NCBI GenBank assembly: GCA_947164985.1 | Contig: CAMUYI010000002.1 | Location: forward strand, 277,886-341,885 | Reading direction: 5' to 3' | Source: an uncultured Bacteroidales bacterium | GTDB lineage: Bacteria; Bacteroidota; Bacteroidia; Bacteroidales; Paludibacteraceae | DNA: 64,000 bases | In this document: positions 7,693-22,115 of the stretch, piece after piece | Layout of the letters: every line of letters starts with the position of its first letter | Numbering within the stretch: position 1 is the first letter of the stretch | Position numbers and translations under genes: made by a program | The notes under the pieces: model-generated | The model's database searches: none | Seen by the model: the letters and a program-made list of their open reading frames with translations, nothing else | What the model was told of the DNA's origin: nothing

Positions 7693-9407
7693 TGTCCCCA
7701 CGCGAAGCGTTAAAAATATTTTTCGGATACGATGATTTCCGGCCCTTGCAGTCGGAGATCATCGAGTCCGTCTTAGCAGGGCGTGATACGCTCGCGTTGA
7801 TGCCTACCGGCGGAGGAAAGAGTGTCTGTTTCCAGATACCTACTCTCGTCATGGCGCAGGACGATCCGAATAAGCGCTTATGCCTCGTCATCACGCCGCT
7901 TATCGCTTTGATGCGGGACCAGGTGGAGAACCTCAAGGCACGGGGGATACATGCCGCGGCGATCTATACCGGTATGTCGTTTGACAAACAACGTGTAGCG
8001 TTGGACAATTGTCTTTATGGTCCGTACCATTTTCTCTACTGCAGTCCTGAAAGGCTTGAGAGTGAAGAGTTTCGCAAGCGTTTGGCTGACTTGCCTATAG
8101 GTCTGATTGCGGTGGATGAGGCACATTGTATCTCGATGTGGGGATACGATTTCCGGCCATCGTACCTGAATATATCAGCTGTTCGGGCTTTGTTGCCAAA
8201 TGTACCGGTACTGGCCCTTACGGCGACGGCTACACCGGAAACCATCAATGATATACAAGATAAGTTGGGTTTTGCTGAAAAGAATGTACTGCGCAAGTCC
8301 TTCCGACGGGAGAACCTGACGTATGTGGTACGGCGTACGGATAATAAACCCGAACAAGTAGCACATATCTTATCCAAAGTGCCGGGGTCAGCCATTGTGT
8401 ATGTACGGAACAGAAAGCGTGCACAAGAGTTGAGTGAGTGGTTACGGGTGACGGGTGACGGATTGCGGGTTGACTACTACCATGCGGGATTAACGACCAA
8501 AGAGCGTAATGAACGGCAAGAGGCGTGGACGAGAGGAGAGACGCGCGTTATTGTGGCTACCAATGCGTTCGGTATGGGTATAGACAAGCCTGATGTGCGG
8601 CTCGTGATACACTATGACTTGCCGTCCCACCTGGAGAATTATTATCAGGAAGCAGGACGGGCAGGTAGAGACGGACAGACGGCTTATGCGGTTTTGCTCT
8701 TTGACCCGCGCGAAGATCCGATGAAGATTCAACAACGCATCACGAATACGTATCCGCCTAAGGAGTTCGTTGAGCAGGTCTATCATAAGACGATGGATTT
8801 CCTGCAGATAGGGGCCGGCAGCGGGTATGGACATCGGTTTATGCTGCATATAGATGAACTATGCCATGTGATGAAGTTGCCGGTTATACAAACCTACTCT
8901 GCCCTTCATCTGCTTACTCAGGCAGGATATATCGATTTCGAAGAGGAACATGAGACGCTACCCCGCGTGCAGATCAAGGTGCCGCGGCACCTGTTAGGAG
9001 AGTATAATCTATCTTCCGATCAAGCATACATGCTAGATACGCTAATGCGTTCCTATACCGGCATCTATACCGACCTTCAATATGTACGGGAGGCTGACGA
9101 TAAGAACAATCATCAGTTGTTAGTCTCTTTGGCTCAACGGGGCATCATCACCTATATTCCTCGTTCTGTCGGTTGCTCGCTTACTATGACAAACGAGCGA
9201 CAGACAGAGATCTATCTATCGCCCGTTATCTTTGAGCAGCGCCAAGAGCGCTTTGTCGCTAAAATCAAGGCTATGCTGGAATATGCGGAGCAGAACCAGT
9301 TTTGCCGTGAGCAGGTCTTACTCGCTTATTTCGGAGAGAACACTACTGTCCCCTGCATGCGTTGTGACGTCTGCCGGGAGTTGAGCCACCGAATCATTGC
9401 TGAGTGA
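7692..9407 (+). CDS. recQ: RecQ-family ATP-dependent DNA helicase (short form)
   Basis: A 3'-5' superfamily 2 helicase for recombination and repair. Walker A 'PTGGGKS' is at residues 38-44; other motifs are 'VDEAHCISMWGYDFRP' (DEAH plus aromatic-rich loop), 'ALTATATPETI' (motif III), 'ATNAFGMGIDKPDVR' (V) and 'YYQEAGRAGRDGQ' (VI). The Cys cluster 'CMRCDVC' sits at the C-terminus, with no HRDC domain behind it; at 571 residues this is the short Bacteroidota form. A heptamer repeat encodes 'LRVTGDGLRV' between conserved strands. The last 90 bp overlap the convergent AsmA-like gene. Confidence 0.93.
   Translation: MSPREALKIFFGYDDFRPLQSEIIESVLAGRDTLALMPTGGGKSVCFQIPTLVMAQDDPNKRLCLVITPLIALMRDQVENLKARGIHAAAIYTGMSFDKQRVALDNCLYGPYHFLYCSPERLESEEFRKRLADLPIGLIAVDEAHCISMWGYDFRPSYLNISAVRALLPNVPVLALTATATPETINDIQDKLGFAEKNVLRKSFRRENLTYVVRRTDNKPEQVAHILSKVPGSAIVYVRNRKRAQELSEWLRVTGDGLRVDYYHAGLTTKERNERQEAWTRGETRVIVATNAFGMGIDKPDVRLVIHYDLPSHLENYYQEAGRAGRDGQTAYAVLLFDPREDPMKIQQRITNTYPPKEFVEQVYHKTMDFLQIGAGSGYGHRFMLHIDELCHVMKLPVIQTYSALHLLTQAGYIDFEEEHETLPRVQIKVPRHLLGEYNLSSDQAYMLDTLMRSYTGIYTDLQYVREADDKNNHQLLVSLAQRGIITYIPRSVGCSLTMTNERQTEIYLSPVIFEQRQERFVAKIKAMLEYAEQNQFCREQVLLAYFGENTTVPCMRCDVCRELSHRIIAE
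8445..8472. repeat. heptamer tandem array inside recQ
   Basis: Four 7-nt units: CGGGTGA, CGGGTGA, CGGATTG, CGGGTTG. They are translated in frame as part of 'LRVTGDGLRV', just before 'YYHAGL', a position where RecQ loop lengths vary. Confidence 0.75.
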
Positions 9408-13573: not shown

Positions 13574-14029
13574 TTATTTCAGGGTGTTAATATCAATTAC
13601 TTTCGGTTGTTGTGCCTGCATGTTGTGCTCTGCACCTGCGAAAATGTACAGGTTAGTGATCTGACGAGCACCCAGACGATTCTTCGGCAACATACCTTTT
13701 ACTACTTTGCGAACGAGCTTGTCAGCGCCCTTAGCCATCAGGTCAGCCGGAGTGAACTCACGTTGGCCACCCGGGAAACCGGTGTAGCGTACATACACGC
13801 GATCGTTCCATTTGTTACCTGTCAGCTGCACTTTGTCAGCGTTCACGATGATTACATTGTCACCACAGTCCACGTTCGGAGTGTAGGACGGTTTGTACTT
13901 ACCACGCAGCAGTTTAGCTACTTTGGAGCACATACGGCCGAGGATCTGGCCTTCAGCGTCAACCACTACCCACTCTTTCTTAGCGGTAGCTTTGTTTACA
14001 GACACTGTCTTGTAAGAATTGTATTCCAT
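13574..14029 (-). CDS. rplM: 50S ribosomal protein L13
   Basis: A 151-residue L13: 'KEWVVVDAEGQILGRMCSKV' near the N-terminus and 'KMLPKNRLG'-like 'VVKGMLPKNRLGARQITNLY' near the end. The ORF track begins 18 codons upstream, but family length and the A-rich, SD-less context ('aaaattaATG') favour the start MEYNSYKTVS at 14029. It is the first gene of rplM-rpsI-rpsB-tsf, behind a structured leader and a clear promoter. Confidence 0.95.
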   Translation of the reverse strand: MEYNSYKTVSVNKATAKKEWVVVDAEGQILGRMCSKVAKLLRGKYKPSYTPNVDCGDNVIIVNADKVQLTGNKWNDRVYVRYTGFPGGQREFTPADLMAKGADKLVRKVVKGMLPKNRLGARQITNLYIFAGAEHNMQAQQPKVIDINTLK

Positions 14030-14183: not shown

Positions 14184-14235
14184 TTTTTTTTCAAAAATCT
14201 GCTAAAAATCTTTCATTTTACTATAGAAAACACAG

Positions 14236-14262
14236 AAAAATCGCCCGAAATGAGCGATTTTT
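14236..14262 (-). terminator. terminator after the 126-residue small gene
   Basis: AAAATCGC/GCGATTTT stem with an 8-9 nt loop and flanking A and T runs, about 20 bp beyond the stop codon at 14284. It separates the accessory cassette from the rplM promoter. Confidence 0.65.
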
Positions 14263-14283
14263 CCTTGAGAGTGCGCAGAGCGA

Positions 14284-14664
14284 TTAACCGTGTTGCTGGT
14301 CGTACTCGGCGCCGCAGACCATCCAGTAGTAGGCCTTGAGGGTCTTCTTGCCGCCTGCGAGGTCTTTCTGAGCCATGAAGGCTTGTTGGTCAGCAAGTTG
14401 TTTGCTCAGATCGGCTGCACGGGTTGCAACCATGTCGCGTACTGCGGTGAAGCGTGCGCGGACTGCTACCTCACGGTTCGACAGCGGAGTACTGCGCTCC
14501 ACTTTTCTACGGAGATACAGTCGGTTACAGTCTTTTGACTCGGTCGCTGCTACGCGGTGCGTACCCAAGAGCATCTTGGTACAAGAGTGTTGACCGCTCT
14601 TGCTCGGTTTGGAGAGTGCTCCGGATACATGATCAATACCGGCACTCCATTCTACTTTAGCCAT
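14284..14664 (-). CDS. small cassette protein A (126 aa), unrecognised family
   Basis: No known function. It is clearly homologous to the next gene upstream: both start MAK, share 'VSGAL-K', 'KM-L-THR-A', 'C-R-YLR', 'TP', 'AQKDLA-GKKT' and end in Q-rich residues. The central 'RLYLRRKVERSTPLSNREVA' followed by 'RARFTAV' recalls small phage-linked proteins with a beta-hairpin then a helix. There is no signal peptide or membrane segment. Last gene of the minus-strand cassette, with a terminator behind and a 182-bp structured gap in front. Confidence 0.7.
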   Translation of the reverse strand: MAKVEWSAGIDHVSGALSKPSKSGQHSCTKMLLGTHRVAATESKDCNRLYLRRKVERSTPLSNREVAVRARFTAVRDMVATRAADLSKQLADQQAFMAQKDLAGGKKTLKAYYWMVCGAEYDQQHG

Positions 14665-14846
14665 TTCGCGTGTGGCTATCCTCGTACATGTACCAAAACT
14701 CCGTTTTAGTAGGGAGTACTCGGATGCACCCGCTCTTAACTCGGACTATCGCTACGTTAGCAGTCCTCGTTAGGGGGATGCCCTCTAAGCCACGTGAGAG
14801 GGGTTAAATGTTAATAAAAAGAGTGAGTTTTGGGTTAACCTGTTGA
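14665..14846 (-). other. structured intergenic/leader segment
   Basis: No ORF. On the minus strand several complementary blocks follow each other: CCCTCT/AGAGGG near 14800, GGACT...AGTCC enclosing GCTA-ACG-TAGC near 14755, and ACTCC...GGAGT near 14710. The segment lies just 5' of small gene A and could be its leader or a small RNA. No promoter box of the -33/-7 type was found in it. Confidence 0.4.
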
Positions 14847-15239
14847 TCAGCCTTGATTGGCTTGATCGTAGGCTGCTGCTTCCAAAGACCAGAGGTATGA
14901 CCGCATGGTCTTTTTGCCGTTAGCAAGATCCTTTTGCGCCTTGAAGGCTGCCTCGTCGGCTGCTTGCTTGGTGGGGTCGTTGAGTCGCGTGTTGACTGCT
15001 GCCGAAACAGCTGCAAACTTGGTGCGGATTCCGGTCTCTTTAGCCGTTACGGGCGTAGTGCGGGTTACGGACTTGAGGTCGCGGAGGTAGACGCGGGAGC
15101 AATCAGGCGAGGTGGTAGGTGCTTTACGGTGGGTAGCCAACACCATCTTTTGGTCTGCCGCGTGCGGGGACTTTTTGTCGATCTTGTTCAGAGCGCCAGA
15201 GACGGTCTCAAACATCGGGGCATAGGTTGCTTTTGCCAT
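14847..15239 (-). CDS. small cassette protein B (130 aa), paralogue of A
   Basis: Paralogue of the gene at 14284-14664, aligning over its full length ('ADQKMVLATHRKAPTTSPDC', 'SRVYLRDLK', 'TKFAAVSAAVNTRL', 'AQKDLANGKKTMRSYLW'). Soluble, basic N-terminal half, Ala-rich helical C-terminal half. No known function. Tandem duplication with divergence of about half the positions implies the pair is old and both copies are kept. Confidence 0.72.
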   Translation of the reverse strand: MAKATYAPMFETVSGALNKIDKKSPHAADQKMVLATHRKAPTTSPDCSRVYLRDLKSVTRTTPVTAKETGIRTKFAAVSAAVNTRLNDPTKQAADEAAFKAQKDLANGKKTMRSYLWSLEAAAYDQANQG

Positions 15240-15265
15240 AGTGAGTAAGTGTTTTTTGTGTTAAA

Positions 15266-15305
15266 CTGGTCTACTGGTCAACTGGTCTTCTAGTCAACTA
15301 GTAGG
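15266..15305. repeat. octamer tandem array (CTGGTCNN)
   Basis: Five units: CTGGTCTA, CTGGTCAA, CTGGTCTT, CTAGTCAA, CTAGTAGG, just upstream of small gene B on the minus strand. Period 8 nt. Confidence 0.85.
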
Positions 15306-15339
15306 ATCGGCTCTTTCTTTAAATAGGTGAGCGTTTTAC

Positions 15340-15447
15340 CTATTTCTTGCGGTGCTTCTCGATGTGGTAGAAGCCAAGAGTGAGGATCTTGATAAGGATC
15401 TCAAAGAGGACTTTAGTCCAACTGGTTTCTTCTTGTTCTGTTTTCAT
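15340..15447 (-). CDS. 35-residue amphipathic peptide, smalltalk-like
   Basis: Missing from the ORF track. Translation MKTEQEETSWTKVLFEILIK followed by a hydrophobic stretch and a basic tail ending HRKK. The 'W-KVL-EI-IKILT' core resembles the Bacteroidota 'smalltalk' small proteins, which are about 30 residues long and usually lie beside a DNA-binding protein gene and an amidase. Here it lies between small gene B and an endolysin-like gene, a similar setting. Such a short ORF needs support from conservation. Confidence 0.5.
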   Translation of the reverse strand: MKTEQEETSWTKVLFEILIKILTLGFYHIEKHRKK

Positions 15448-15489
15448 AATGTAGTTGTTTTAAAAATAAAACAAAAATGCAAGATGTTT

Positions 15490-15879
15490 TTATTTAGCGG
15501 CACAAATCTCAAGGCGGGTCTCTTCTGAGGCGGTTTGCTCGGAAAGCCAGCGGGCGGTAAGAGATTGCTCCATGCTGGCGGAGATAAGGATACAGCCTTT
15601 ACTGTGCTCAGGTAGAGAGCCGCGGTGGAATCGTATTCCGGAACGTCCGGGGACTTGGGATAAGAGGGGTAAGAGCCTCTTAAACTTGGGCGATTGGGTG
15701 ACTTGAACTTTGTAGATCAAGGCGGGGACGAGGTAGTCGGCATTTTCGAGTGTGTCGCAGATATAGTGCAGACGCTCTACGAGGAGGCCGGTACGCTTGT
15801 TGATGTAGTGCGATGTGCGATAGAGTTTGCCGTGGACAGCCTTGTCTTCGGGCATGGCACGGATGAGTTTATAGTACAT
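15490..15879 (-). CDS. DUF5675-like (phage endolysin-associated) protein
   Basis: A 129-residue protein. The C-terminal part 'RFHRGSLPEHSKGCILIS' fits the H-x-G ... T/S-x-GCI-L-h motif of DUF5675, a family found in phages and in Bacteroidota near amidases and holins. The N-terminus carries 'HGKLYRTSHYINKRTG', again as in that family. The start at 15879 (MYYKLIRAM) is preferred over the track start 12 bp upstream. The adjacent holin-like gene supports a wall-degradation or lysis role, inferred only. Confidence 0.6.
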   Translation of the reverse strand: MYYKLIRAMPEDKAVHGKLYRTSHYINKRTGLLVERLHYICDTLENADYLVPALIYKVQVTQSPKFKRLLPLLSQVPGRSGIRFHRGSLPEHSKGCILISASMEQSLTARWLSEQTASEETRLEICAAK

Positions 15880-15925
15880 AAAAAGACACAAGCTAAAAAT
15901 TAATACAAGCTAAAAAAGACACAAG

Positions 15926-16120
15926 CTAGTTTTTCTTCTTGTAGACGTAGTCGATGCCCATCAGCGCGCCGGAGAAGGTGGCGACTTCCCCGAACGCGAC
16001 GAGGAGCGATTCATGGATTTGGCCTTCGGGGTCGATGAAGACTCCGCAGAAGAGTAATATAAGTCCGCCGATGGAGAGCACTGTGGCGGTGATGAGTTGC
16101 AAATTTACTTTCATATTCAT
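15926..16120 (-). CDS. holin-like two-helix membrane protein
   Basis: A 64-residue protein with two membrane segments ('LITATVLSIGGLILLFCGVF' and 'LLVAFGEVATFSGALMGIDY') joined by a short acidic loop and ending in YKKKN, the size and topology of a small holin. It sits 47 bp upstream of the DUF5675-like gene in the direction of transcription. A second start lies 6 bp in. The role as a lysis pore is inferred from topology and neighbour. Confidence 0.6.
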   Translation of the reverse strand: MNMKVNLQLITATVLSIGGLILLFCGVFIDPEGQIHESLLVAFGEVATFSGALMGIDYVYKKKN

Positions 16121-16242
16121 AAAAATGTTTAGCTATTCTCGGCGGAAGCCACTCCTTCCATTCCGTTGGAAGGACGTTCCGGGTGCAAATATGCCCACAT
16201 TTTTGGCGGTTTTGCAAATTTTTCACAAAAAAGTCTACAAAA

Positions 16243-16389
16243 TTATCCCCAGGCGTACTTCAGGAAGGCTTCAATATTGGTTTCATCGACCGGTTGTCCG
16301 AAGCAGTCGAGCAGGTCTTTGACGATACGCGCTTCGATATGTTTTCCTGCGCGTTGATTGAGACATTGATGTATTTCGTGTGTGGTCAT
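16243..16389 (-). CDS. 48-residue protein, unrecognised
   Basis: Not in the ORF track. Begins MTTHEIHQCLNQRAGKHIEA and ends in 'AFLKYAWG'. The start overlaps the stop of the upstream gene as ATGA, a strong sign of a real coupled gene. Predicted helical and soluble, with two cysteines. No function can be assigned. Confidence 0.55.
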   Translation of the reverse strand: MTTHEIHQCLNQRAGKHIEARIVKDLLDCFGQPVDETNIEAFLKYAWG

Positions 16390-16622
16390 AGAGTTCCTTT
16401 CTTTTTTGAGCGTTCAACGATTTCGAGGTTGTATAAGGTCGCTATCTCCCGAAGATGGACCGAGATTGCATCGGGATTGAGTCGGTTACGAATCGGCTTG
16501 TAGAAAGCGAAGATTTTGCCGTTTCGTGTTCGAAAGATGAAGTCATCTATTCGTCCTCTCAATGCTCTCAAATTGCCGTCAACTGATCTGAGTTGAAAGG
16601 CGGTTTTACTATATTTCGGCAT
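16386..16622 (-). CDS. 78-residue cassette protein with R-N-G-K beta motif
   Basis: Begins MPKYSKTAFQLRSVDG. The core 'LRGRIDDFIFRTRNGKIFAF' is a beta-hairpin pattern (G-x-h-x-x-h-h-h-x-x-R-N-G-K) seen in small phage-associated proteins of Bacteroidota. The start at 16622 is chosen because AAAGGAGGT lies 5 nt before it, an unusually perfect Shine-Dalgarno for this phylum, placed inside the 3' end of the upstream gene (14-bp overlap). The track start 69 bp upstream would run far into that gene. It ends in ATGA shared with the next small gene. Confidence 0.65.
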   Translation of the reverse strand: MPKYSKTAFQLRSVDGNLRALRGRIDDFIFRTRNGKIFAFYKPIRNRLNPDAISVHLREIATLYNLEIVERSKKKGTL

Positions 16623-16929
16623 GGGTACCTCCTTTCTTGAATTCGGCCTTGACTTCTGCCCAGATGAGTTTGCGTGGACGTTTGTCGCCATTGGCCATGC
16701 GACGTGATACTTCGGAAGCCATGAGAGCGAAGGATGAGCGGGCTGCTACTTCACCTTTGGTGGGTTTAGTGCGACGCGGTTTGTCTTCGCGGATGTAGAT
16801 CTTCTGTTTGCCGTTTCTGACTTGCGCTACGACGCGCTTGGTGATGACACCTTTGGAGGTGATGATCGTGGTTTTTGATAGTGTGCCGGAGACATTAGCT
16901 ATACCGGCGGGAAATATACAATCTGCCAT
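16609..16929 (-). CDS. small cassette protein C (106 aa), distant relative of A and B
   Basis: 'AGIANVSGTLSK' at the N-terminus, 'VRNGKQKIYIRED' in the middle and 'TKGEVAARSSFALMASEVSR' after it follow the same order as proteins A and B and the R-N-G-K motif of the 78-residue neighbour, so these genes form one divergent family. A basic linker 'KPRRTKP' connects hairpin and helix. No known function. It starts 2 bp after the stop of the upstream gene. Confidence 0.65.
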   Translation of the reverse strand: MADCIFPAGIANVSGTLSKTTIITSKGVITKRVVAQVRNGKQKIYIREDKPRRTKPTKGEVAARSSFALMASEVSRRMANGDKRPRKLIWAEVKAEFKKGGTHAEI

Positions 16930-16931
16930 AA

Positions 16932-17321
16932 TTATTTGTAATTTAGCGGTTTAACATCTTTTAGTTGGAACGCTTGGGCGGCTTTGAGGGTGTAGACTCC
17001 GTAGCGGTCGAAGTACTTGGCAGAGACCATTTTGAAGGACTTCATCATGGAGTTGATATGGTCTGTGCCGTTCCAGTTGAAGGGTATGGGAACACAATCT
17101 TTGATGGCGTAGTACGGGTGATCTTTGATCTTGACACCGCGCATTTTCTGTTCCCAGAGTGTGACCCAAATCTGCCGCTGGCGTTGGAGGGGGATGGCGT
17201 TCCATTGCTCTTTGGCCGGTCCTATCATGTGCCTGTTTTGGGGCGCGATGTAGGGTTTGAGCAATTCGAGCATAGAGGTCCAACTATCCCGCTTGATGAT
17301 AATGTCGTCTAAGGATTCCAT
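16932..17321 (-). CDS. hypothetical protein (129 aa)
   Basis: Starts MESLDDIIIKRDSW at 17321; the track start 75 bp upstream lies in a sequence without coding character. It is helix-rich, Trp-rich ('EQWNAIPLQRQRQIWVTLWE') with 'IPFNWNGTDHINSMM' near residue 85. No signal peptide or membrane segment. I do not recognise the family. Co-directional with, and 2 bp before, small gene C. Confidence 0.6.
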   Translation of the reverse strand: MESLDDIIIKRDSWTSMLELLKPYIAPQNRHMIGPAKEQWNAIPLQRQRQIWVTLWEQKMRGVKIKDHPYYAIKDCVPIPFNWNGTDHINSMMKSFKMVSAKYFDRYGVYTLKAAQAFQLKDVKPLNYK

Positions 17322-17438
17322 AAAAAATTTTGAAAAAGTAGTGAGAGAGACTACAGAGAGAGTATTTACTATGCAGATAGTCTCTCTACTACGCATTTTT
17401 TTCTTTAATCTTTTGGTTCTTTTCTCTTTCTTTTTCTT

Positions 17439-17825
17439 TTAGTCGATGACCTTGACCGTCAGTTTGATCTCGTCGGGTTGTTTGTCGGGATAGAGTTCGA
17501 CGAAGGTCTTGACGTAGCCGTTCATGATAGCTGTGCGAGCTTTGACGCAGTTCTGCTCTTTGACCTTTTCTCTGGCATTCTCTCGCCATAAGACGGCCTG
17601 TTCTTGTTGGTACTTGTGGTAATCGGTAAAGTCAAAGACATCGGTGCGCTGGAGTTGGAAGGTGCCTACGCCTTCGATCTCGAACTCGCCTCGGTCGAGA
17701 CCTTTGGCGGCAAGGATGGTGACGGCTTCGGAGGTAGCAGCGTCGGAGATAGAGTCGATTTGTGCCTTGATGGCTTTCTCTTGGGTGCGCAGGGAGCGCA
17801 GGAGTTTTAAATTTGTTGTTTCCAT
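17439..17825 (-). CDS. hypothetical coiled-coil protein (128 aa)
   Basis: An N-terminal helix 'LKLLRSLRTQEKAIKAQIDS' with heptad character, a short beta section 'EFEIEGVGTFQLQRTDVFDF', then a long charged helix 'YQQEQAVLWRENAREKVKEQ'. Cytoplasmic and acidic. The layout recalls small phage proteins of Bacteroidota but no family is recognised. A GCCGGA-TACTA-TCCGGC palindrome lies 20 bp before its start. Confidence 0.6.
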   Translation of the reverse strand: METTNLKLLRSLRTQEKAIKAQIDSISDAATSEAVTILAAKGLDRGEFEIEGVGTFQLQRTDVFDFTDYHKYQQEQAVLWRENAREKVKEQNCVKARTAIMNGYVKTFVELYPDKQPDEIKLTVKVID

Positions 17826-17844
17826 AATGATAAATGTTTTGGGC

Positions 17845-17861
17845 GCCGGATACTATCCGGC
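17845..17861. repeat. palindromic element, copy 1
   Basis: GCCGGA-TACTA-TCCGGC, flanked by TTTTGGGC and AAAAT. The same flanks and loop recur at 19921 with changed arms. Intergenic copy, 5' of the coiled-coil gene. Confidence 0.75.
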
Positions 17862-17881
17862 AAAATTAACAATGTTTTTTG

Positions 17882-17926
17882 TAAGGTCCGTAGGGTCTTT
17901 AAGGACAGTAAGGTCATTAAGGACCG
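17882..17926. repeat. nonamer tandem array (TAAGGNCNN)
   Basis: Five units: TAAGGTCCG, TAGGGTCTT, TAAGGACAG, TAAGGTCAT, TAAGGACCG, then a decayed continuation to about 17945. Intergenic, between the HNH gene and the coiled-coil gene. Confidence 0.85.
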
Positions 17927-17964
17927 AGTAAAAAGGACCAAGTGAAAAGGGGCCAAATGGGCAG

Positions 17965-18486
17965 CTATTCTTTGTATTTGGCAAAGAAGGTTTTGAAGTC
18001 CTCCAAGGGCATGGAGAAGAAATGATGGAAATCGTCGGCATTGAAGATGCGGGGATCGAAGTCGCAGGAACGCATGAAACGTACGTATTTAGAACGACGA
18101 TTGTTTTCCACGAACGTAACGGGTTCAAGGTTCTGCCACCTGTTGTCCGTCGTGCAGCCGTTGAGATGATCGATACAATCCGCATCCTCTGGGATTGGTC
18201 CTACCCAAGCGAGATAGACGGCATGAGAGACGAGAATGTGCTCACGCACTCCCCAAGCCTGCTTAAATTGCAGATACCGTTGTTTGCGATTCGCGTCGGA
18301 CTGAATTTGACTATTTTCCGTAGTAGTATACGTGCCTTCTATTTCCGTCTCTACCCCACTTGGGGCGATACGCAGACCGATGGTACCATCAAAAGAGACG
18401 AAGAGGCGATAGCCGTTGTCGGGTTCGTGCGGAACAAGGCGCAAGGGTGTGCCGTTAAAATCATACGTTAATAATGTGTAAGCCAT
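17965..18486 (-). CDS. HNH endonuclease-like protein
   Basis: A 173-residue protein. 'VSHAVYLAWVGPIPEDADCI', 'DHLNGCTTDNRWQNLEPVTF' and 'VENNRRS' reproduce the HNH_3 pattern of phage and homing endonucleases (h-H-h-h ... h-D-H-x-N-G ... D-N-R-x-x-N-L ... E-N). The first half is a beta-rich domain of unknown kind, the tail a helical 'FFSMPLEDFKTFFAKYKE'. It may nick or cut DNA, or act in phage packaging. Stand-alone, with its own promoter-like TACTTTTG about 70 bp upstream. Confidence 0.75.
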   Translation of the reverse strand: MAYTLLTYDFNGTPLRLVPHEPDNGYRLFVSFDGTIGLRIAPSGVETEIEGTYTTTENSQIQSDANRKQRYLQFKQAWGVREHILVSHAVYLAWVGPIPEDADCIDHLNGCTTDNRWQNLEPVTFVENNRRSKYVRFMRSCDFDPRIFNADDFHHFFSMPLEDFKTFFAKYKE

Positions 18487-18554
18487 TTTAATATTGTTTA
18501 AAAAATTACTAAAATGGCCGGGCCCAGCCGTTAGCTGTATTTGGAAATCCGCTG

Positions 18555-18562
18555 CAAAAGTA
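18555..18562 (-). promoter_or_regulatory. -7 box upstream of the HNH gene
   Basis: TACTTTTGCAGC on the minus strand preceded by AAAAAGCAG, the same context as the strong promoters of this window. No good -33 TTG is found at 19-20 nt, so it may be weak or regulated. Confidence 0.45.
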
Positions 18563-18583
18563 CTGCTTTTTAAATAGAAACCC

Positions 18584-18598
18584 CGCTCAATTTGAGCG
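18584..18598 (-). terminator. hairpin after the small membrane-protein gene
   Basis: CGCTCAA-T-TTGAGCG inside a GC-rich stem, followed on the minus strand by a short T run (GGGGTTTC). It is 15 bp past the stop at 18613. The U tract is weak. Confidence 0.4.
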
Positions 18599-18612
18599 AG
18601 GCTGCAAAAAAA

Positions 18613-18873
18613 TTACTTTTTGTTGTAAATACGGCGTAAGGTAGCGGGACTTTTGTCTGTTGAGATATCTAATTTGGTATTATAATCATACGGATGATCC
18701 CTCTTCATAATGTCGCACCAACCTTGTATCGTCTCCCTTTCAAATTGTTTGTATTCAAAGCGAATACGAGAGGCTTTTACATGCTTTGTCAGACGAATCA
18801 GATAAATAACAATAAAGAATATCAAGATCATTAATGAGGTAATATCATACGTTTCTTCTTTGCGTTCATTCAT
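18613..18873 (-). CDS. small single-pass membrane protein
   Basis: From the ATG at 18873 the product is 86 residues: MNERKEETYDITSLMILIFF with one membrane helix, then a basic cytoplasmic tail 'KHVKASRIRFEYKQFERETI' and 'DKSPATLRRIYNKK'. The track start 54 bp upstream lies in the promoter region (TAACTTTGC), so the later start is used. No family recognised. Its own promoter and terminator make it a single-gene unit between the HNH and restriction-modification genes. Confidence 0.55.
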   Translation of the reverse strand: MNERKEETYDITSLMILIFFIVIYLIRLTKHVKASRIRFEYKQFERETIQGWCDIMKRDHPYDYNTKLDISTDKSPATLRRIYNKK

Positions 18874-18896
18874 GTTGTTTTTGGTTAAAAAGGACG

Positions 18897-18994: not shown

Positions 18995-21787
18995 TTATTT
19001 GTTCAACTCTTGATACATCTCAAACAGACGCGCGACACAGTCCGATTCAGAGGTCTTGCCAGGTACAAAGCCGTAGGCCTGCATGACAGCCCGATCGTTG
19101 TCTTGGTGGGCACGGCGGAGTTCGGGCGGCATGGCAACCTCATCGTAGAGGTCGGCGAGAGAACAATCGGGATATTTGGCGCGAGCGTCCAAAATGGCTT
19201 GAGCGGTGGCTTCGATGCGGGCTTGCTGTTCGTCAGACGGTGTCGGCCATGGGAAGTTGTTATACACGATGGTATTTGAGTAACGGTAACGCATTTCCAG
19301 ACGACCGCAAACCGCACGCATCCATGCATTGTGAATATTGGATGTCATTACGCCAAAATGGTATAATGAAGCATTAGGTACTACAAAATTGGCATCGCTA
19401 CAAATATTTTCTTTGGTGATATAGCCAATAGGAATATATCGTCTGCGTTCAGAACTAACACGTGGGACTAATAAATAATCACTATCCGGCTGACGGTTTT
19501 CAGTAAACAAAGTCGGATATTCAGCCCATTTTTGAGTAGCCTCTTTAGTACTTGCCAATCGCATTTGCCGCACCTGTTCGATACGTTCAAGAACAGGTGG
19601 ACAAGTACGTAAAACAGAAGGGTTAATATCTACGAGCCATAAGCAATAACGATACTTATTATTGATAAATTCCGTAGATCCGATAAACCTACGTACGTAT
19701 GGCGCTATTTGTGGATACTTGCTCACTAATTCATCTCTTTCTTCTTGCGAAAGGATCAGATTTCCGCCGTCGGTAGGTTGACTACCTTTGATCATCTCAG
19801 GTACAGCACACATGGGCTTCTTGCAATTCTCAATAAAGACATCAGGCGCGTCAAGGAGGTAGCCGTTGATATTGGCGGCATCGATTGTTTGCGCATCGGA
19901 GAGATAGATTTTCTTTGGGCGCCGAATACTATTCGGCAAAATGGACGAAGCCGAGAAACCTATAATGACACAATGCACGTGGGCTTTGATGTCGGCTTCA
20001 GAATCCCAACGGAAGGTGCGATAAGCGAAATCAAATTGGATGCCATATTGCTCAAAGAGCGGTTTCCAAATAGCTGCTACTTGCTCGCCTTGTGTGATAG
20101 AATTGGTAGAAACGAGCGCTGCTTTGATGGCAGGATTCTCCTTCATCATCTCTGCCGATTTGAGGTACCAGCCTGCGACATAATCGATATTGCTACCAAA
20201 GCCTTTCATGATAGCCACGAGGTCTTCTTTTTGCTCTTTGCTCTGGTATGCGTATCCTACAAACGGCGGGTTTCCCATGATGTAGTTGAGTTTATCAGGG
20301 GCAATGACTTCTGACCAATCGACACGGAGCGCATTGCCTTCGTGGATGTAAGCGTTGGTTTTGAGCGGGAGGAAATCCATAGGACGACCGGCAATAGCTG
20401 AGGTCTCTTTGAGTGTCTGGCTTTCCGCTATCCACAAAGCAGTCTTGGCAACCGTACAAGCGAAGTCGTTGATTTCGATGCCGTAGAACTGCGAGATGTT
20501 AACTTTGATAAGGATATCGAACGTGAGGATGTTTTCCCCGCCGAACATGGCTTGAATGACTTTGTTTTCGAGACGACGGAGCGAGAGGAATGTTTCTGTG
20601 AGGAAGTTACCGCTACCGCAAGCCGGATCAAAGAATGTCAGACTTGCTAACTTATCTTGGAAGGTCTGCAAGGCTTGCTTGCGAGGACCAGCTTGTTTGA
20701 TCTCTTGAATCTGTGCGAACTCCGTTTTGAGGTCATTGAGGAAAAGCGGGTCGATGACCTTGTGGATGTTCTCGATAGAGGTATAGTGCATGCCGCCGGA
20801 ACGACGTGTCTCCGGGTTCAAGGTCGATTCGAAGACCGCACCGAAGATAGTAGGAGAGATTTCACTCCAATCGAAGTCGTCGGAAGCTTTGGCAAGGATG
20901 AGTTCTTTGAGTTCGTCCGTGAAGCGCGGCACGATGATTTTCTCCTCGCTGAACAGACCACCGTTCACGTAGGGGAAAGCGGCAATGTCTGGCTCCAGAT
21001 ACGGGTCACGTTCAGCAATCGGCGTATCGAGCAGCACGAACAAATCCATGAGTGCGCGACGGAAATCGGTGGCACCGTACTTAGCCAGATAGTCGTGGAA
21101 AGCTGTGCGGCTGTTGAACAGGCCGGCATCTTCGGCATAGAGACAGAACACGAGACGCACGCAGAGGATATTAAGACTGCGGAGCGTTTCGGGACTATCC
21201 TTGTCGATGTATTGCTCGAGCAATTTATCGTAGATATGACCGACTAACTCACCAGCCTTGACGCTAACTTCCATCTCGCGTTTGAGATGTTCGTTGCCTT
21301 CGTCCACAAGGAATTGCAGGCGGTAGTATTCCTTTTCGAGGTTTTCAAGAAGAATCTTCTGCGGTTCGCCGTTGGGTTGCTCCATGTCATAGACCCAGAA
21401 CTCGCGGAAGTTACATGTGACGATCCAACGCGGGCGCTGGCTGTACGGCAGTTCTGCGGCATAGCGTTTGGCCTGTTGGAAAGGATTGAGGGACGTACCA
21501 TCGGACTGTTTGATCGGTTCACCAAGGTCTTTCTTGATACTCTTCTGCTCGATCATAACGTGCGTCGAAGGGATGAAGCCGTCGATGAAGGACGTGTGGT
21601 CAAGGTGTACCTGTTGCTCGTAGAGCAAGAAGGTATCCACGTGCTCGATGCCGAACACTTCGGTTAAGAGTGTGCTCCAGAAGATTTGGCTCTCGCCTTT
21701 CTCGTAGCCCTTACCTTTCCATCTTTCTGCAAATTCCTTTGCTGCTTTTTGTTGCTGTATCTGGGTCATAGCATTAGGATTTGTCAT
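18995..21787 (-). CDS. type IIG restriction-modification enzyme (MmeI-like)
   Basis: From the ATG at 21787 the product is 930 residues. The N-terminal nuclease has D69 in 'FIDGF' and E80-x-K82 in 'HVMIEQKS', a PD-(D/E)xK site. The gamma-class N6-adenine methyltransferase has motif I 'FDPACGSGNFL' (386-396) and motif IV 'NPPF' (506-509), followed by a target-recognition region. One polypeptide would methylate and cut; no separate specificity or nuclease gene is nearby. Residues 615-625 ('SSILPNSIRRP') are encoded by a palindromic element. The track start 165 bp upstream would run through a structured RNA-like leader and is rejected. Confidence 0.88.
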   Translation of the reverse strand: MTNPNAMTQIQQQKAAKEFAERWKGKGYEKGESQIFWSTLLTEVFGIEHVDTFLLYEQQVHLDHTSFIDGFIPSTHVMIEQKSIKKDLGEPIKQSDGTSLNPFQQAKRYAAELPYSQRPRWIVTCNFREFWVYDMEQPNGEPQKILLENLEKEYYRLQFLVDEGNEHLKREMEVSVKAGELVGHIYDKLLEQYIDKDSPETLRSLNILCVRLVFCLYAEDAGLFNSRTAFHDYLAKYGATDFRRALMDLFVLLDTPIAERDPYLEPDIAAFPYVNGGLFSEEKIIVPRFTDELKELILAKASDDFDWSEISPTIFGAVFESTLNPETRRSGGMHYTSIENIHKVIDPLFLNDLKTEFAQIQEIKQAGPRKQALQTFQDKLASLTFFDPACGSGNFLTETFLSLRRLENKVIQAMFGGENILTFDILIKVNISQFYGIEINDFACTVAKTALWIAESQTLKETSAIAGRPMDFLPLKTNAYIHEGNALRVDWSEVIAPDKLNYIMGNPPFVGYAYQSKEQKEDLVAIMKGFGSNIDYVAGWYLKSAEMMKENPAIKAALVSTNSITQGEQVAAIWKPLFEQYGIQFDFAYRTFRWDSEADIKAHVHCVIIGFSASSILPNSIRRPKKIYLSDAQTIDAANINGYLLDAPDVFIENCKKPMCAVPEMIKGSQPTDGGNLILSQEERDELVSKYPQIAPYVRRFIGSTEFINNKYRYCLWLVDINPSVLRTCPPVLERIEQVRQMRLASTKEATQKWAEYPTLFTENRQPDSDYLLVPRVSSERRRYIPIGYITKENICSDANFVVPNASLYHFGVMTSNIHNAWMRAVCGRLEMRYRYSNTIVYNNFPWPTPSDEQQARIEATAQAILDARAKYPDCSLADLYDEVAMPPELRRAHQDNDRAVMQAYGFVPGKTSESDCVARLFEMYQELNK
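19921..19937. repeat. palindromic element, copy 2 (in frame)
   Basis: GCCGAA-TACTA-TTCGGC with the same flanks as copy 1 (TTTGGGC / AAAAT). The arms differ from copy 1 at paired positions (GGA/TCC to GAA/TTC). It is translated on the minus strand as 'LPNSIRR' within the type IIG enzyme. Confidence 0.75.
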
Positions 21788-21803
21788 TACGCTATGACCG
21801 GCA

Positions 21804-21893
21804 TAAAAAAGCGGGCATTCGTGATAGTCACTCTCCCCGCATATCTGGGCTCTCGCTAGCCTGTGTAGTGGTTCAAGCAACATCGAAGCCCGC
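21804..21893 (-). promoter_or_regulatory. structured RNA leader of the type IIG gene
   Basis: Minus strand: GCGGGCUUCG pairs with CGAA(u)GCCCGC over 10 bp around a ~60-nt interior holding hairpins GGCU-AGCGAG-AGCC and GUGA-CUA-UCAC; six U follow the closing stem, 17 nt before the start codon. That is the form of a terminator-linked riboregulator or a small RNA whose terminator precedes the gene. Further upstream the ~325-nt leader has CGCAGAGA-AGCG-TCTCTGCG (22050-22070) and GCCC-CAAAA-GGGC hairpins. No known class recognised. Confidence 0.55.
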
Positions 21894-22115
21894 CGTGTAT
21901 AGATACAATACGCCCCAAAAGGGCATATGTATATACATACACCGACAGACATTCATTGTTGCAATGCCTTGACTACACATTTTGAATTTGCGAGATTCAG
22001 ATATGCCAAGAACAAAGCGCAATAAACGCTGTTTATAATCTCAACATGTCCGCAGAGACGCTTCTCTGCGATCCGGTTTTACGTCATGGATGGGACGATA
22101 TGTTTTCAAATCGGG

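Follow-up and report, generated by a model that had tools for sequence, protein, structure and literature searches.

A multi-copy cassette of lysis-type genes dispersed in a rumen Paludibacteraceae genome, a putative relative of the HU–smalltalk–amidase loci

Bacteroidales genomes contain loci that combine an HU-HIG protein (PF18291), a smalltalk peptide (NF033879) and an N-acetylmuramoyl-L-alanine amidase, often with DUF4248 and BT4734_N/DUF3987 genes. These loci are common in gut Bacteroidales, almost absent from the literature we searched, and dispersed in many copies per genome (PF18291 gives 17–21 matches in each of three other Bacteroidales genomes); at L279, one such locus among those compared and from another Bacteroidales genome, an amidase and a DUF4248-like gene adjoin HU-HIG and smalltalk. 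We set against these loci, against the holin–endolysin–spanin modules of tailed phages and against phage satellites a cassette from the genome of a rumen Paludibacteraceae bacterium (G000), contained in a stretch of 64,000 nucleotides (the window). Compared loci carry L-numbers, and cassette copies are named by locus.

Reading the open frames of the window shows eleven small minus-strand ORFs with rplM on one side and a Type IIG restriction-methylase gene on the other; the cassette extends over approximately 14234–18564. The first gene encodes an HNH endonuclease (HNH_3, 17965–18486; PF13392, E = 5e-7, also matching PHROG HNH families, best E = 5e-12), and is preceded by a Bacteroidota-type promoter box, AGTACTTTTGCA (18553–18564); like boxes precede HNH in most full-length copies. 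There follow a coiled-coil protein (cc128, 17439–17825), with HNH-adjacent homologues in most full-length copies; the cassette marker protein p129 (16932–17321); A106 (16609–16929), recognized by the profile of a new family that we term A (E = 5e-24); the 78-aa p80 (16386–16622), which overlaps both A106 and p48; and the 48-aa p48 (16243–16389). Homologues of p80 and p48 occupy the same slots elsewhere, those of p48 at seven loci. A possible internal promoter box, read from the sequence (TATTTGC, 16185–16191), stands upstream of a holin-like small membrane protein (hol64, 15926–16120), itself followed by a DUF5675 endolysin-like protein (15490–15882; PF18925, E = 5e-16), a small hydrophobic peptide of 35 aa (st35, 15340–15447) with relatives at 13 loci, the A-family protein A130 (14847–15239, profile match) and the terminal A-family protein A126 (14284–14664, profile E = 1e-47). 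An intrinsic terminator-like hairpin on the same strand (14234–14264, 13-bp stem and T run) closes the cassette before the rplM promoter, rplM starting near 14029 and flanking the A126 end. The ATGA overlap of p80 with p48, the overlap of A106 with p80 and tight gaps elsewhere confirm the cluster of small minus-strand genes proposed by an earlier sequence-only reading, and the base skew of the region is unlike that of the adjoining ribosomal operon. Noncoding DNA around the possible internal promoter is 92% identical to L036 over 16182–16234, and the A126 3′ end with its hairpin is shared by four loci of the same genome (L020, L021, L022 and L025). Short tandem repeats of 16–17 bases lie at 15880–15928 (the DUF5675 start) and at 15259–15290 (before A130); a similar repeat stretch precedes the terminal A gene in L017.

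DUF5675 and HNH_3 are the only Pfam families in the cassette, and an Rfam search gave no match above the gathering score. Pfam and PHROG searches found no integrase, capsid, portal, terminase or tail gene in the window cassette, as the sequence-only reading had stated. That reading counted four related small proteins; the profile unites three (A106, A130 and A126), and p80 is not detectably related to them. It also counted as a member a membrane peptide at 18613–18876 (minus strand), which we place outside the unit because it has its own promoter-like box, a terminator-like hairpin on either side and no counterpart at any of the loci fetched. Immediately upstream of the cassette stands the MmeI-type Type IIG restriction-methylase (18998–21952, minus strand; PADLOC REase_MTase_IIG, Pfam MmeI domains).

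Instead of the single locus first described, the cassette is one of at least 17 copies at scattered sites in the G000 chromosome. Gene order was read from maps of 17 G000 sites, 19 loci of relatives and then 80 named loci. The 5′ part runs HNH, coiled coil, p129, then HTH or small proteins, the same across sites and species; the 3′ part holds either holin, DUF5675 and small peptide or a smalltalk-lipoprotein, followed by one to three A genes. The objection that relatives might keep these genes in no common order thus fails. Many copies are without holin and DUF5675 and have smalltalk-lipoprotein and A genes only; lysis may therefore not be their common denominator. The A-family profile gives 43 matches in G000, some at contig ends, and detects A genes in four more genera of the family. 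Searches with A130 gave 18 hits within G000, hits in 22 of 36 further genus members and none in 24 genomes of other families. The marker p129 occurs in 10 copies in G000, in five in another genus member and at 31 of the 80 genus loci, and was not found outside its own genus among 247 genomes of the order. Relatives of A126 are encoded in 388 GTDB contig stretches, 80 of which were kept, almost all from rumen Bacteroidales or Paludibacteraceae bins; one cassette (L076) lies on a Lachnospiraceae-labelled contig, probably a binning error. All 14 DUF5675 genes of G000 fall in cassette loci or a DUF3987-like locus, and cc128 has a near-identical copy in contig C33 (L206).

We found no mobility mechanism for the cassettes. 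G000 has four integrase matches, none at the listed cassette positions, and the cassette maps read contain no virion or packaging genes. Downstream neighbours are alike in three pairs among 73, and 47 of the 73 are oriented as the cassette. Of 30 genus loci inspected, G000 among them, only three have an A gene upstream of rplM. Gene order past the rplM promoter differs among the relatives compared, so that the comparison gave no precise insertion ends. DNA similarity to these relatives stops at the rplM promoter (window 14188–14208), and the arrangement of genes upstream of rplM varies greatly within the genus. The upstream stretches inspected in rplM-anchored relatives hold no prophage; the sequence-only reading had named a complete prophage at this site in close strains as a refuting find. 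Synteny there varies too much to compare occupied with empty sites cleanly. An integron-like array was considered and rejected, as no common element lies upstream of 255 A genes.

Comparisons of cassette genes with their best matches give omega values mostly of 0.02–0.3, that is, purifying selection, and together with the conserved order this shows the ORFs to be real genes. A126 gives omega 0.12–0.16, its same-genome paralogues about 0.13 at a dS of about 0.4; p48, p80 and A106 are under weaker constraint, and st35 gave 0.88 in one short comparison. These values bear on the idea of selfish homing, with HNH as its driver and the lysis genes as passengers, for which the scattered sites and the first position of HNH in full-length copies would speak. 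We consider it very improbable: passengers would not stay at an omega of about 0.1, and HNH, the least conserved gene (best match 36%), was detected at no more than 15 of the 80 loci, many of which are truncated by contig ends. Since selection keeps the genes intact, the cassettes probably still make cells lyse. Ten same-genome A126 copies are approximately 90–96% identical in protein, and for 48 of 66 terminal A proteins the closest relative is encoded by the same genome, where shuffles would lead one to expect 4.8. A130 has a 99% identical copy at another site in G015, the closest relative, against which the window copy looks mosaic: DNA identity is approximately 95–99% over most of the length of A130 and DUF5675, and mostly 60–80% in the stretches between. 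Recombination between copies would both spread and homogenize the cassettes.

The predicted holin and endolysin belong to families seen in phage lysis loci, and the lysis-type gene content of the cassette, already noticed in the sequence-only reading, is well supported. In phage contig L330 homologues of hol64 come directly before lysozyme and spanin-like genes, and in L329 before a spanin-like gene. Thirty-five viral contigs encode relatives of DUF5675; in several, tailed-phage contigs included, a gene for a spanin-like lipoprotein follows immediately. Such relatives also stand in viral contigs of 3–5 kb (L312–L321), L312 having a microvirus gene layout. Records of crAss-type phages annotate a DUF5675 relative as a putative transpeptidase, and its HxG...SxGC motif resembles, by eye, that of L,D-transpeptidases (lipobox, DUF4248-like and spanin-like assignments are likewise motif readings by eye). 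The cassette thus shares holin and DUF5675 families with tailed-phage lysis modules, and some copies share spanin-like lipoproteins, but it differs in having no head, tail or packaging genes, in its 17 or more chromosomal copies and in the attached A proteins.

Phage-type HNH and lysis genes would also suit a reduced phage satellite or prophage relative, replicated and packaged by a helper phage and using its own lysis genes for exit. Satellites such as PICI and PLE are likewise short, with phage-like genes, defence genes nearby and a primase, the last found in some cassette relatives: DUF3987/BT4734_N primase-like genes occur in some copies or sister loci (L028, L203, L204 and L266), and one A gene lies within a terminase and portal-like region (L197). 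Unlike satellites, the copies inspected have no integrase, capsid-remodelling or packaging gene, and the integrases of G000 are not at cassette sites. The A family is without a match in 2.9 million viral contigs, 50,697 phage records or plasmids, and cc128 without one in viral contigs. That purifying selection acts on many copies of one genome weakens the simple form of the idea, a satellite remnant, and we judge a satellite origin of this kind unlikely. In L197 the A-family gene (8036–8344), on the opposite strand, is enclosed by phage genes of terminase, portal-like and DUF1320-like type.

The nearest likeness is to the HU–smalltalk–amidase loci, which the sequence-only reading had invoked 'with different partners'; sister loci, a smalltalk match and the HU locus L279 uphold it. 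Both are dispersed in many copies per genome, and both combine a small hydrophobic peptide, a wall-cutting enzyme and a small HTH-type protein. The earlier naming of a smalltalk-like peptide in the window needs amending: st35 has no smalltalk or other NCBIfam match, and it is a sister-cassette lipoprotein in the same slot (L023) that scores 24.8 bits for smalltalk against a cut-off of 24.7. A DUF3987 primase, frequent in HU–smalltalk–amidase loci, appears in sister loci of the cassette. In other genera these read DUF3987, HTH, Amidase_3, spanin-like, A (L198) and A, Amidase_2, spanin-like (L201), and in a member of the genus BT4734_N/DUF3987 stands beside A and DUF5675 (L203). Apart from the A cassettes, a conserved locus of DUF3987-like primase, small protein and DUF5675-like gene was seen at L266 (1984–4387) and L269 (4572–6985). 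The cassette differs in having the unrelated-looking A family for HU and DUF5675 for the amidase, and adds an explicit holin and the HNH–coiled coil–p129 head. It contains no HU-HIG domain: the PF18291 matches of G000 number just three, all weak (best E = 1.3e-8), and those listed lie at C4 and C23, away from this cassette. No N-acetylmuramoyl-L-alanine amidase is present in the window cassette, amidases being found only in the sister genera, at L198 and L201. Because sister loci hold DUF3987, amidase and A, or smalltalk, and L279 holds HU, smalltalk and amidase together, we infer that the cassette is a variant of the HU–smalltalk–amidase class, with A substituted for HU and DUF5675 for the amidase.

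The A family (no Pfam match) is represented by an AlphaFold model of A130, with a C-terminal three-helix bundle (pLDDT 91–98) and a low-confidence N-terminal half that has strands; the fold has no match in the PDB or BFVD. The p129 model is of medium confidence and its fold has no PDB match. From their position and basic residues, A proteins probably bind nucleic acid through the basic N-terminal half. On balance we lean towards reading the cassette as a self-contained transcription unit of phage origin, dispersed in many copies, whose core activity would be controlled lysis of its own cell and which would constitute a lineage-specific version of the HU–smalltalk–amidase loci. Upon a trigger, the genes at the upstream end (HNH, coiled coil, p129 and HTH) would act on DNA or on expression; holin, DUF5675 and smalltalk or spanin-like peptide would next permeabilize the membrane and cut the wall, with A proteins in the position of HU.

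The company of the cassettes raises the question of what such lysis would serve. PADLOC reports 135 families in 78 genes flanking or inside G000 cassettes against 38 in 80 control genes, counts of families and not of positive genes, and the control families shown come nearly all from a few gene types; defence enrichment beside the cassettes is accordingly suggestive. Confirmed singly by locus are PDC-S02 and ThsB in L018, AbiEii and WYL in L031, PDC-M30A in L032, PDC-S27 in L017 and PDC-S05 in L026, and PDC-M29A lies inside cassette L018. Such defence genes, common beside or inside cassettes (the Type IIG restriction-methylase, L018, L031, L017 and L032), could speak for abortive infection, an altruistic defence in which phage infection would switch on late genes and the cell would lyse before phage mature. 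Proximity is not function, though, defence genes cluster at variable sites anyway, and the cassette has no sensor of known type, leaving this a rather doubtful account of the whole. A module that releases vesicles, bacteriocins or extracellular DNA (with lysed cells and A protein as a biofilm scaffold) would make use of the lysis genes, a possible nucleic-acid-binding protein and the many maintained copies; the cassettes show no recurrent gene for bacteriocins or secretion, and we think it distinctly improbable.

Within the reading of controlled own-cell lysis, we propose tentatively that the cassettes form an undescribed class of dispersed lysis elements, at 17 or more sites per genome, lacking recombinase and virion genes, conserved in order, maintained by selection and homogenized inside each genome, in which A, in place of HU, might couple nucleic-acid binding to programmed lysis; gene transfer, DNA release or abortive infection are its conceivable, if speculative, purposes. 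A full set of lysis-type genes kept by selection at many sites of one chromosome calls for explanation, since such genes are dangerous to carry. A second line with HU and amidase swapped suggests what is essential, namely a small hydrophobic peptide, a wall enzyme and a partner of DNA-binding type, and thereby makes the function of the whole HU–smalltalk–amidase class testable.
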